Shown here: in pieces, positions 27,289 through 49,047 of the stretch
Layout: the number at the start of each line of letters is the position of its first letter
Position numbering within the stretch: the first letter of the stretch is position 1
NCBI RefSeq assembly: GCF_004698125.1
Contig: NZ_SRHV01000005.1
Location: forward strand, 62,001 to 126,000
Source of the DNA: Halosimplex halophilum
GTDB taxonomy: Archaea; Halobacteriota; Halobacteria; Halobacteriales; Haloarculaceae
DNA length: 64,000 nucleotides
Direction of reading: 5' to 3'
Notes under the pieces: generated by a model
Told to the model about the DNA's origin: nothing
What the model saw: the letters and a program-made list of their open reading frames with translations, nothing else
The model's database searches: none
Program-made: the position numbers and the translations under genes

Positions 27289-27837
27289 ATGCAACACGTG
27301 AAGATTCCGCAGGACCGTATCGGCGTGCTCATCGGCGAGGGGGGTGCGACGCTGCGGGAGATCGAGGACGCGGCGGAGGTGCGACTCGACGTCGACAGCG
27401 AGACGGGGCAGGTGAAGATCGAGCAGACCGGCGACCCGCTCACCGCGCTGAAGGGGCCGGACATCGTCAAGGCCATCGGCCGCGGGTTCGCCCCCGAGGA
27501 GGCCATGCGCCTGCTCGACGACGAGATGATGATGTTCGACATCATCGACATCGACGCCGCCGCGCGCAACCGCAACGACCTCCAGCGCCACAAGGGCCGA
27601 CTCATCGGCGAGGACGGCCGCACCCGCGAGCTCATGGAGGAACTGTCCGGTGCCTCGGTCGTCATCTACGGCTCCACGATGGGCATCATCGGCGGCCCCG
27701 AACAGGTCGACACCGTCCGCGAAGCCGCCGAGATGATCATCGAAGGCGCCCCCCACGGCACCGTCTACTCCTTCCTCGAGGAGAAGCACAACGAGATGAA
27801 ACACAAGGGCCTCGACTACCACCAGTTCACGGGCTAG
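27289..27837 (+). CDS. KH-domain RNA-binding protein, Pno1/Dim2-like
   Basis: 182 residues with two KH domains. KH1 begins VKIPQDRIGVLIGEGGATLR with GxxG as GEGG; KH2 contains RLIGEDGRTRELMEEL with GEDG. This length and pairing match archaeal homologues of eukaryotic Pno1/Dim2 (KRR1-like), which bind the 3-prime end of small-subunit rRNA during ribosome assembly. In archaea the gene often lies near rio1 and aIF1A; neither is in this window. A plus-strand CCTTAAAACGG (about 27258-27268) is a plausible TATA box, 25-30 nt before the ATG. Confidence 0.92.
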   Translation: MQHVKIPQDRIGVLIGEGGATLREIEDAAEVRLDVDSETGQVKIEQTGDPLTALKGPDIVKAIGRGFAPEEAMRLLDDEMMMFDIIDIDAAARNRNDLQRHKGRLIGEDGRTRELMEELSGASVVIYGSTMGIIGGPEQVDTVREAAEMIIEGAPHGTVYSFLEEKHNEMKHKGLDYHQFTG

Positions 27838-27927
27838 GTAGCGTCGGGACTGCTGTCCGACCTGCGCCCTCCCGCTCTCGTTTTCCCGCTCCCGCCGCTA
27901 CCGATTTCGCGACTGCCGCTACCGCGA

Positions 27928-28193
27928 ACAGCGTGAAAGCCCCGGCCTGGTTCGGTCGCGCGGCTTGCTGCGCGCTTCGCTCACTGCGTTCGCTGCAGTG
28001 CTTACGGCGCCGGGCTTCCCGAACCAGGCCGCCCCTTTCATTCCCACCCGCACAGACTGGTCGGTAAGCCGATACGGGTGGGAATGAAAGGGGCGACTCG
28101 CTCGACGACGGCGGCTGACGCAAGCACCGCAGGGCGGAGCCCGAGGAGCGCAGCGACGCCCCCGAGTCGAGCGAGTCGGGGCTTTCACGCTGT
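27928..28193. repeat. Paired inverted hairpin units forming a four-way junction (family 2)
   Basis: Four perfect stems abut with no unpaired junction base: outer ACAGCGTGAAAGCCCC (27928-27943) with 28178-28193 (16 bp); left arm GGCCTGGTTCGG (27944-27955) with 28019-28030 (12 bp); apical arm 28031-28050 with CGGGTGGGAATGAAAGGGGC at 28075-28094 (20 bp); right arm GACTCGCTCGAC (28095-28106) with 28166-28177 (12 bp). The two halves are inverted copies of one unit of about 120 bp that share their ends, but the 12-bp stems differ fully in sequence and each stays self-complementary. It lies between the KH gene and an ADH gene; the rest of the gap (27838-28370) shows nothing else clear. Confidence 0.85.
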
Positions 28194-28370
28194 CTCGCAG
28201 TACGATCAGATCAGCGATGCTGTCGGCGATCGCGGGAGCTCTCGGGCTGTTCGCAGTCCAGCGATCAGTGACGTAGTCGTCGCAGTCACCACTCCACTGG
28301 GCACCAAAACTCGAACGCGAACCGGCTACAGGTACGAGGGTATTTCACGGGCGCTGCCGATACCCCGGGT

Positions 28371-29432
28371 ATGCGCGCAGCAGTGTTCACGGACTACGGC
28401 GAACCGCTGGACGTGCGGGAGGTCGACGACCCCGAGCCCGAGCCCCACGGCGCGGTCGTCGCCGTCGAGGCCTGCGGGGTCTGCCGGAGCGACTGGCACG
28501 CCTGGCAGGGCGACTGGGAGTGGCGCGGCCTCGACCCGGTGCCGGGCCACATCCTCGGCCACGAGCCCGCCGGCCACGTCGTCGCCGTCGGCGAGGAGGT
28601 CGACGGCGTCTCCGAGGGCGACCACGTCGCCGTCCCGTTCAACCTGGGCGACGGCTCCTGTCACCTCTGCCGGACCGGCCACTCGAACATCTGCGAGAAT
28701 CGCCAGGCGCTGGGCCTCCAGCCGAGCGCACCCGGCGCGTTCGCCGAGCAGGTACCGGTCCCCCACGCCGACCACAACCTCGTCACGCTCCCCGAGGGGG
28801 TCTCCTCGGTGGACATGGCGGGGCTGGGCTGTCGGTTCATGACCGCCTTCCACGGGCTGGCCCACCGCGCGGACGTGGGCGCCGGCGACTGGTTCGTCGT
28901 CCACGGCTGCGGCGGCGTCGGCCTCTCCGCGGTCCAGATCGCCGACGCGCTCGGCGCCAACGTCGTCGGCGTCGACCTGATGGACGAGAAGCTCGACTTC
29001 GCGGAGGAGCAGGGCGCCGTCGAGACCGTCAACGCCGCGGAAGTCGAGGACCCCGCCGCCGAGGTGCGGGCGATCACCGACGGCGGCGCGGACGTGTCGA
29101 TGGACGCGCTCGGTATCGAGACGACCTGCCGCAACGCGGTCAAGAGCCTCGGCAAGACCGGCCAGCACGTCCAGGTCGGGCTGACGACGAAGGAGGCCGG
29201 CGGGAACCTCCCGCTGCCGACCGACGAGATGGTCACCGCCGAGATCGACTTCCTCGGCGCGCTGGGGATGCCGCCCGAGCGCTACGACGAGATCTTCCGG
29301 ATGGTCGCCACCGGGAAACTCGACCCCGCCGCCATCATCACCGAGCGCATCTCCCTCGACGAGGTGTCGGGGGTCCTCGGCGACATGACCGACTTCGAGA
29401 CGGTCGGCATCCCCGTCATCGACGAGTTCTGA
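28371..29432 (+). CDS. Zinc-dependent alcohol dehydrogenase family protein
   Basis: 353 residues of the medium-chain dehydrogenase superfamily. Catalytic zinc ligands: Cys in EACGVCRSDWHAW and the GHILGHEPAGHV histidine/glutamate region. The structural zinc site has Cys in GSCHLCRTGHSNICENR. The nucleotide-binding motif GCGGVGLSAVQIA is near residue 178, and VVGVDLMDEK holds the acidic residue favouring NAD. The domain order (GroES-like, then Rossmann) and length are normal. The substrate is unknown. It begins downstream of the family 2 structured element and is probably singly transcribed. Confidence 0.92.
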   Translation: MRAAVFTDYGEPLDVREVDDPEPEPHGAVVAVEACGVCRSDWHAWQGDWEWRGLDPVPGHILGHEPAGHVVAVGEEVDGVSEGDHVAVPFNLGDGSCHLCRTGHSNICENRQALGLQPSAPGAFAEQVPVPHADHNLVTLPEGVSSVDMAGLGCRFMTAFHGLAHRADVGAGDWFVVHGCGGVGLSAVQIADALGANVVGVDLMDEKLDFAEEQGAVETVNAAEVEDPAAEVRAITDGGADVSMDALGIETTCRNAVKSLGKTGQHVQVGLTTKEAGGNLPLPTDEMVTAEIDFLGALGMPPERYDEIFRMVATGKLDPAAIITERISLDEVSGVLGDMTDFETVGIPVIDEF

Positions 29433-41086: not shown

Positions 41087-41357
41087 GCTGAAAGCCCTCG
41101 GCGCGCTCGCGGTCGCTGAGCGACATATCCGCGCTCTCCGCACCGCCCGCGCGGATAGGGGTCGCTCAGGCGACTAAAATGGACGCGAGCGCGCCTCGCC
41201 CTTTCAGTCCGCCAGGACTGCACGGCACCGCGACCACCCCGAACAGCAACCGCAAACGGCCACGAGCCTCCCCAGCCGATTGCGCTTCTCGCAGGCTGCG
41301 ATGCTCATCCCTCGCGCGGTTCCGTCGCGCGCATGAAAGCGCGCGACAGCGCGCGCC
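41087..41357 (+). repeat. Nested-hairpin intergenic element, family 1, copy B
   Basis: The simplest copy, showing the basic plan. Stem 1 CTGAAAG (41088-41094) with CTTTCAG (41201-41207); stem 2 GCGCGCTCGCG (41101-41111) with CGCGAGCGCGC (41184-41194); stem 3 CTGAGCGAC (41116-41124) with GTCGCTCAG (41161-41169); stem 4 ATCCGCGC (41127-41134) with GCGCGGAT (41149-41156); the loop is about 14 nt. A tail with CCTCCCCAGCCGATTGCGC and CGCGCGACAGCGCGCGCC follows. It starts 73 bases after the folA stop. The remaining gap before the next convergent gene is filled by a tandem repeat. Confidence 0.83.
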
Positions 41358-48720: not shown

Positions 48721-49047
48721 GATGAAAGCCCTCGGCGCGCTCGCGGTCGCTGAGCGACATATCCGCGCTCTCGGCACCACCCGCGCGGATAGGGGTCGCT
48801 CAGGCGACTGAACTGCACGCGAGCGCGCCTCGCCCGTTCAGTCCACCAGGGACCGCGACCGCACGGTACGGCACCGCGACCGCCCGCACAGCACCGCAAA
48901 GGGCCATGACCCTCCCCAGCCGATTCGCGACCCGCGAGTCGCGAATCCACCGTCGGAGCAAGCTCCGACGAGCCTTCGTTCACACAGTTCACGAAGACCT
49001 CGCGCGGCTACGGTCGCGCGCATGAACGCGCGCTCCAGCGCGCGCCG
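48721..49047 (+). repeat. Nested-hairpin intergenic element, family 1, copy C
   Basis: Same plan and orientation as copy B. The 5-prime arm begins ATGAAAGCCCTCGGCGCGCT and the 3-prime arm ends CGCCTCGCCCGTTCAGTCC, so the outer stem has one mismatch here. The inner stem GCTGAGCGAC/GTCGCTCAGGC and ATCCGCGC/GCGCGGAT are intact. Tail modules include GTCGGAGC-AA-GCTCCGAC, GATTCGCGA/TCGCGAATC and CGCGCGCTCCAGCGCGCG. It starts 72 bases after the hotdog gene stop and ends 46 bases before the convergent LLM oxidoreductase gene. Confidence 0.82.

Follow-up and report, generated by a model that had tools for sequence, protein, structure and literature searches.

A family of inverted hairpin pairs with a conserved fold and variable stems in Halosimplex halophilum and other haloarchaea

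The element, its copies and its distribution

In the window, the whole stretch of 64,000 nucleotides of Halosimplex halophilum DNA that was analysed, an inverted pair of hairpins (27928-28193, Table 1) lies between two + strand genes, after the stop of 27289-27837 and before the start of 28371-29432. From their translations, we take the upstream gene to be KH-domain-like and the downstream gene to be alcohol-dehydrogenase-like. Direct reading of the sequence confirmed base for base the four stems of 16, 12, 20 and 12 bp that had been proposed in the initial annotation. Since the arms abut at 27943/27944, 28030/28031, 28094/28095 and 28177/28178, the stems meet in a four-way junction without an unpaired base. 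The single-strand DNA fold of 27900-28220 had an energy of -123.8 kcal/mol, against a mean of -74.5 kcal/mol for 100 shuffles of the same interval (sd 4.05; z -12.2), none of which was as low. Inverted-repeat comparison also agreed with the annotation that the halves are inverted copies of each other, with the same ends but 12-bp stems that differ. Each hairpin continues beyond this basal 12-bp stem with an internal loop, in which TC stands opposite TTC or GTC on the outer-to-inner strand, and then with a 7-bp second stem that has a fixed mismatch.

Table 1. Parts of the hairpin-pair element in the window
Feature	Position	Strand	Remarks
Outer terminal inverted repeat, left (ACAGCGTGAAAGCCCC; core box GAAAGCCCC)	27928..27943	+	16-bp stem with 28178-28193; same ends bound the other own-genome copies
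Left hairpin, variable 12-bp stem, 5' arm (GGCCTGGTTCGG)	27944..27955	+	Pairs with 28019-28030; direct reading
Left hairpin interior: internal loop TC/TTC, second 7-bp stem, apical part	27956..28018	+	
Left hairpin, second stem	27958-27964 with 28009-28015	+	Fixed G.G mismatch at third pair
Left hairpin, 12-bp stem, 3' arm	28019..28030	+	
Inner box, left copy (GCCCCTTTCATTCCCACCCG)	28031..28050	+	20-bp stem with 28075-28094
Centre between inner boxes	28051..28074	.	Weakly palindromic; fully palindromic in copy L061
Inner box, right copy, inverted	28075..28094	-	
Right hairpin, variable 12-bp stem (GACTCGCTCGAC on + strand)	28095..28106	-	Pairs with 28166-28177
Right hairpin interior: + strand GAC / GA internal loop, apical part	28107..28165	-	
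Right hairpin, second stem	28110-28116 with 28157-28163	-	
Right hairpin, 12-bp stem, other arm	28166..28177	-	
Outer terminal inverted repeat, right (GGGGCTTTCACGCTGT)	28178..28193	-	

The sequence GTGAAAGCCCC occurs 26 times exactly in the H. halophilum genome, mostly in facing pairs. Fifteen places were fetched, and 14 of them have the plan of the window element (outer box, hairpin, inner box, about 24 nt, then the mirror image), some with deletions; the 15th candidate (L063) was left out, as it has a single box only. Element length varies between 121 bp in L058, which has lost its middle, and 368 bp in L059, where a loop contains additional palindromes. The 12-bp stem is perfect in 17 of the 19 halves passing the motif filter, and most of the stems differ. 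With 14 elements of the same layout in one genome, the four-stem layout is far beyond chance. Extra palindromes (e.g. GAGAGAGC-GCTCTCTC, TCTGAGGGCTACGCCCTCAGA) are nested in the hairpin loops of L057, L059, L060, L102, L116, L119, L242 and L244. They are common to several elements and species and look as if small cassettes enter the loops.

The window also contains two units of another family, called family 1, at 41089-41206 and 48723-48840, with ends of the form TGAAAGCCCT-C-12 bp stem ... stem-TCGCCCTTTCAGTCC. The suggested relation between the two families is upheld by the shared boxes and architecture of these units. The family 1 units are single and related to the present ones, TGAAAGCCCTC-GGCGCGCTCGCG ... 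CGCGAGCGCGCC-TCGCCCTTTCAGTCC, but their inner module is another one (GACATATCC ... GGATAGGGGTCGCT). Unlike in the hairpin-pair family, both copies have the same stem. A G-quadruplex on the G-rich strand was considered as a further possibility; the GGG runs are missing from family 1. The sequence GTGAAAGCCCT is found at about 16 further places in the genome.

Among 145 relatives, the pattern box-N(72-102)-box was present in 38, representing 19 of 51 genera, and the reversed-pattern control gave none in any listed genome. The initial annotation had named two findings that would refute its reading, a lack of other copies and single units without the internal stem. Other copies are abundant, both in the own genome and in these relatives, and the stem is also kept in units for which no inverted partner was detected. 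The exact inner box was found in 101 stretches in about 85,000 species genomes, and 79 of the 80 listed were haloarchaeal records, including Natrialbaceae, Haladaptatus, Halorussus, Halonotius and Haloglomus. The match in a Deltaproteobacterium (L118) has no partner box and was dismissed as a bacterial chance match. Beyond the outer box, the extension is ACACCAC in Natrialbaceae versus ACAGCGT, matched at both element ends; over all clades, both ends are identical over 7 nt in 49 of 84 dimers. The 19-base inner pattern had no match in viral contigs, and phage records gave no match either. Twenty-three plasmid records matched, mostly over one half.

The elements are intergenic: 107 of 112 element clusters lie outside called ORFs, with genes called by codon-position GC rather than by annotation. 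Neighbouring genes were tandem, divergent and convergent in 62, 22 and 10 of the 94 classifiable cases, compared with 85, 42 and 30 of the background gaps. A terminator role was rejected, since there was no enrichment between convergent genes. No neighbour gene family recurred near elements in more than 7 of 80 loci, which is a weak test as the clusters are unnamed. In L153, L155, L159, L169 and L177, the units are followed by a long spacer rich in CCTCCCCAACCGATTCGCTCGCT ... GCGCGCGCC, and some of these spacers precede an inverted partner box, giving dimers with a second conserved central module.

Pairing, mismatches and the folded strand

We collected 297 distinct units, of which 266 had exact boxes (the 31 inexact ones were dropped) and 235 remained after removal of near-duplicates. 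In these 235 units, 95.2% of the first 10 stem pairs were Watson-Crick pairs, and when arms were shuffled between units pairing fell to 50.5% (largest 53.2%). The stems contained 148 distinct 10-mers, and at 11 of the 12 stem positions three or all four of the Watson-Crick pair types occur (at least 5 units each), while one position has two. When box pairs were taken with no filter on pairing, 187 of the 207 non-redundant ones had 9 or 10 of 10 pairs and only 4 had fewer than 6, and thus we rejected the explanation that the pairing is a filter artefact.

After the 12-bp stem, TC is found on the left in 107 of the 197 well-paired units. Opposite this TC, the other strand reads GAA in 96 of the 107 units, GAC in 10 and GCA in 1. 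The statistics of the second stem cover these 107 units; the other 90 have another dinucleotide at this place. Of the seven second-stem positions, 1, 2, 4 and 5 are paired in 103-106 of the 107 units, position 6 in 83 and position 7 in 98, while position 3 is unpaired in all 107. When position 3 is set aside, pairing is 93.5%, versus 57.2% after shuffling. It is difficult to account for a fixed mismatch amid covarying neighbours unless the folded form is recognised. The structural constraint that the annotation had seen in a single copy is far better supported across the family.

To determine which strand folds, we tabulated stem mismatches in units with at most 2 mismatches (10 of the 235 were dropped). 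Read on the inner-to-outer strand, the 82 mismatches were G.T (35), G.A (21), G.G (13), A.C (9), A.A (2), C.C (1) and C.T (1). Thus, 69 of the 82 contain G on this strand (binomial 2e-11 on 80 informative mismatches, optimistic as our p-values are in general because the unit counts include related sequences), and seen on the mirror strand these mismatches would contain C. Mutational bias from replication or transcription should cancel because the halves of a dimer are inverted. We read the bias as selection for the stability of one folded strand per unit. Two observations temper this reading. The fixed second-stem mismatch is C.C on the inner-to-outer strand, the strand taken as folded, which counts against it, and the whole-unit energy difference between strands is small, with the bottom strand more stable in 118 of 195 units under RNA parameters and in 113 of 195 under DNA parameters.

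An alternative is that the constrained molecule is RNA. The hairpins would then belong to read-through transcripts from either side, and the inner-to-outer hairpin would be a functional RNA such as a protein-binding 3' UTR element or an sRNA. This would fit the strand-specific tolerance of mismatches that include G.T (35/82), the GAA/GA internal loop, which is an RNA-like motif, and the position of most elements between tandem genes (62/94). However, wobbles occur seldom and without a clear preference (G.T 35 against G.A 21 plus G.G 13), both inverted halves keep the structure, and the placement resembles that of background gaps. Moreover, Rfam 15 gave no match in the window at the gathering score; a permissive search gave only sub-threshold hits, and those to microRNAs were taken as chance matches to a long hairpin. 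The structured RNA named in the initial annotation thus stays a rival, albeit an unlikely one. Because wobbles are infrequent and have no clear advantage over G.A and G.G, the constrained molecule is probably DNA.

It might also be argued that the family is a decaying neutral repeat in which template switching (quasi-palindrome correction), and not selection, maintains the complementarity of the arms. In many cases both arms have changed together, and loops and stems mix between copies. On the other hand, the CCCC/GCCC bases beside the stem stay unpaired within the hairpin, position 3 of the second stem has never been corrected to pair, the boxes are fixed and the mismatches are strand-biased. 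We consider this explanation very improbable.

The two units of a dimer usually carry different stems. From 138 dimers, 58 intact non-redundant ones remained after those with inexact boxes and repeated loci were dropped. By their last three bases, the stems can be sorted into two classes, and 28 of the 37 dimers with both halves classed were heterodimers (permutation p 0.0006; 21 of the 58 were unclassed and dropped), with classes that were drawn up after the stems had been seen. No dimer has more than 10 of 12 stem positions identical. A direct test of stem dissimilarity was not significant (5.17 versus 5.58 of 12 identical, p 0.07). The stems are perfect for at least 10 bp from the junction in both units in 29 of the 58 dimers, in one unit in 22 and in neither in 7, and thus the exact four-way junction of the window element is common, not universal.

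Orthologous sites, element ends and candidate enzymes

Comparison of flanks gave 27 rows of orthologous sites, which are not independent since one pair appears twice and several share a site. Two rows had the same element, one had an element inverted in place and 24 were classed as other, mostly with different stems. In alignments at shared sites, the boxes are kept nearly invariant, the hairpins differ and the flanks diverge. The inversion in place is between L022 and L196, whose halves are 99% identical crosswise with flanks of 92%, at the same site as L067. Among the 24 other rows, the pair L082 and L083 shows an exact exchange of the two stems, with one half 96% identical crosswise, and in L064 the top of the hairpin is inverted within a unit. 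The site of the window element is occupied in three relatives (L242, L244 and L245), all with different hairpins, and no terminal repeat pair was found there in L243, L246 and L247.

Such inversions and exchanges recall the attC sites of integrons, which have conserved boxes, a variable self-complementary stem and conserved unpaired bases, with one strand being recognised. A tyrosine recombinase might fold the units and exchange or flip the hairpins at their boxes, which would account for the conserved boxes, the stems that are free in sequence and kept in shape, the fixed unpaired position, the in-place inversion, the exact stem swap and the inverted hairpin top. However, no cassettes or arrays were seen among the neighbours, the elements are single between genes, and no neighbour family recurs widely. 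We hold a site of the attC type to be quite unlikely.

At the apparently empty sites L236 and L255 a piece of the right end remains, with weaker remains in L238 and L243. This retention suggests that they are deletions rather than pre-insertion sites; an exact pre-insertion site was not found in Halosimplex. In Haloglomus-type genomes, a tract of about 470 bp in two species (G060 and G071) is 98.5% identical at unrelated places. Sites that hold copies in one species lack the whole tract in relatives, with edges that are placed only approximately. Five Haloglomus-type loci (L336, L337, L338, L339 and L341) have sequence in common beyond the outer boxes, GTAGCTGTAGGG...GTAGTTGGAGGGAG on one side and CTACGCACGACCAGCCTACCG on the other, and thus the mobile tract in these genomes may exceed the hairpin pair.

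The site of L061 is kept across species (L140, L145, L089 and L115), and sites common to several species also fit an old resident sequence with a host function. The element could be an architectural site of the host, a duplex whose extruded cruciform is the target of a nucleoid or junction protein. The exact four-way geometry, the intergenic sites kept across species and the near invariance of the boxes beside diverging flanks all agree with such a role. A duplex cruciform, however, is strand-blind, yet the mismatches are strand-biased; moreover, only half of the intact dimers have both stems perfect for at least 10 bp, and copies are lost. We give this role a low probability. The geometry of the cruciform or Holliday-like structure in the initial annotation is real, but the strand bias argues for a folded single strand and not only a duplex cruciform.

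The annotation had also proposed a MITE dimer and a check of the flanks for target-site duplications. None of the 14 own-genome copies has a direct repeat at its edges. Instead, the flanks of these elements are often mutually inverted, ACCGCRA ... TYGCGGT, with an ACCGC-rich left and a GCGGT-rich right side, possibly marking a palindromic target as reported for SMR-A insertion. The search for an autonomous transposon with the same ends covered loci of at least 2500 bases and, among whole genomes, the own one only; it gave no two outer boxes at a distance of 420-5000 bp that had matching flanks and lacked a further outer box between them. A conventional MITE would be mobilised in duplex form by a DDE transposase recognising the 16-bp ends. 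The copies are indeed dispersed, multi-copy and non-coding, and their terminal inverted repeats are perfect and matched within the element, although variable between clades. However, neither target duplications nor an autonomous element were found within the scope given above, and such a transposase gives no reason for the constrained hairpin interior. Thus, the description as an inverted dimer of one unit holds, while a MITE in the strict sense is improbable.

We also considered known single-strand transposases. The own genome has one partial match to Y1_Tnp, and matches were found in 83 of the 145 relatives. Five genomes (G001, G005, G009, G040 and G041) have units and no Y1_Tnp match, and thus RAYT/IS200 was rejected as the mobiliser on its distribution. 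In Archaea, only the IS200-like subclass is reported in the relevant part of PMC6006769. An origin from tnpB or omega-RNA was rejected, since the own tnpB loci lack the box pair. The own Y1 locus lacks it as well. At one of the four own-genome tnpB loci (L203, position 1840; G000:C2 ~917506), GAAAGCCCC lies just 3' of tnpB and is followed by a CCCCACCCT ... AGGGTGGGG hairpin. This box is a possible link between the hairpin-pair family and IS605-type right ends.

Proposed mechanism and comparison with known systems

Our preferred reading, to which we give an even chance, is that the element is a REPIN-like pair of inverted hairpins of haloarchaea, and that a putative trans-acting enzyme mobilises or recombines it in the form of folded single-stranded DNA. 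We infer a recombinase of folded single strands because of the strand bias, the fixed mismatch, the inversion and the replacement at orthologous sites. Two hairpin units would lie in inverted orientation between short conserved boxes, and each unit would be recognised as a folded single strand reading from inner to outer, GGGAATGAAAGGGGC-hairpin-GGGGCTTTC. Recognition would depend on the boxes and on the shape of the hairpin, a 12-bp stem, a GAA/GA internal loop and a 7-bp stem with one fixed mismatch. As the stem letters would not be recognised, we propose that the stems could drift freely while paired. The inverted second unit would place one correctly oriented hairpin on each DNA strand, and the perfect four-way junction would be a by-product of this layout. 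Usually different stems in the two units might keep the element from becoming one long perfect palindrome. The putative trans-acting single-strand-DNA recombinase or transposase would spread copies and replace or flip resident ones in place. More tentatively, the family might represent a haloarchaeal single-strand-DNA class without Y1/RAYT, in which a putative recombinase reads boxes and hairpin shape, the stems are freely changing spacers, and residents are flipped or replaced in place.

Well over two hundred units across haloarchaea keep a precise fold although their sequence is replaced at a rate that can be seen between species of a single genus. This turnover is a natural experiment on structure-only recognition of nucleic acids, and the family points to a putative archaeal DNA-processing enzyme. 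We found no description of the family in open full-text literature on haloarchaeal repeats, REPINs and cruciforms, a body of text that mostly excludes subscription journals, and a full-text search with the box letters gave no haloarchaeal paper by title among the matches listed.

The nearest haloarchaeal class, compared by description only, is SMR of Haloquadratum. In the sections of PMC3119063 that describe them, SMR-A and SMR-B are short, have terminal inverted repeats and lack target duplications, features also found in the hairpin-pair family. Their mobilisation is described there as unknown, and SMR-A, about 110 bp long, inserts within palindromes (PMC3119063), to which the often inverted flanks of our elements may be compared. 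However, SMR copies are homogeneous, commonly with more than 95% identity, whereas the hairpin-pair family is sequence-diverse and mostly dimeric. PATEs and IS200-IS605 elements, as treated in the same sections, are similar in their near-end palindromes and single-strand-DNA logic. PATEs lack terminal inverted repeats and have palindromes near their ends (PMC3119063), whereas the hairpin-pair family has terminal inverted repeats and no tnpA or tnpB inside.

The likeness to integron attC sites (see PMC3053210) lies in the boxes and the variable paired stem, and the fixed unpaired position and the strand bias may also fit the recognition of one folded strand. The family differs from attC in its inverted pairs, and no cassettes were seen.

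REPINs and BIMEs (REP doublets) are closest in architecture. According to parts of PMC3116915 and PMC3733652, they share with the hairpin-pair family an inverted hairpin pair, conserved ends, compensatory changes, an intergenic location and singlets that resemble remnants, and heterodimers are reported there for some REP families. The same parts give REPIN ends as GTAG or CGTC and a unit size of 20-40 bp, whereas the haloarchaeal boxes are GAAAGCCCC and GCCCCTTTCATTCCC and the units are about 100-125 bp. The conserved terminal tags of the haloarchaeal units, GAAAGCCCC and GCCCCTTTC, thus differ from the GTAG/CGTC tetranucleotides. In addition, the family is archaeal, its stems are almost wholly changed between copies in one genome, and no RAYT was found. 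Since tag, size, stem freedom and the missing RAYT differ, we class the family as working like a REPIN and not as a REPIN. A REPIN-like architecture where no RAYT was found suggests that this layout may have arisen more than once.
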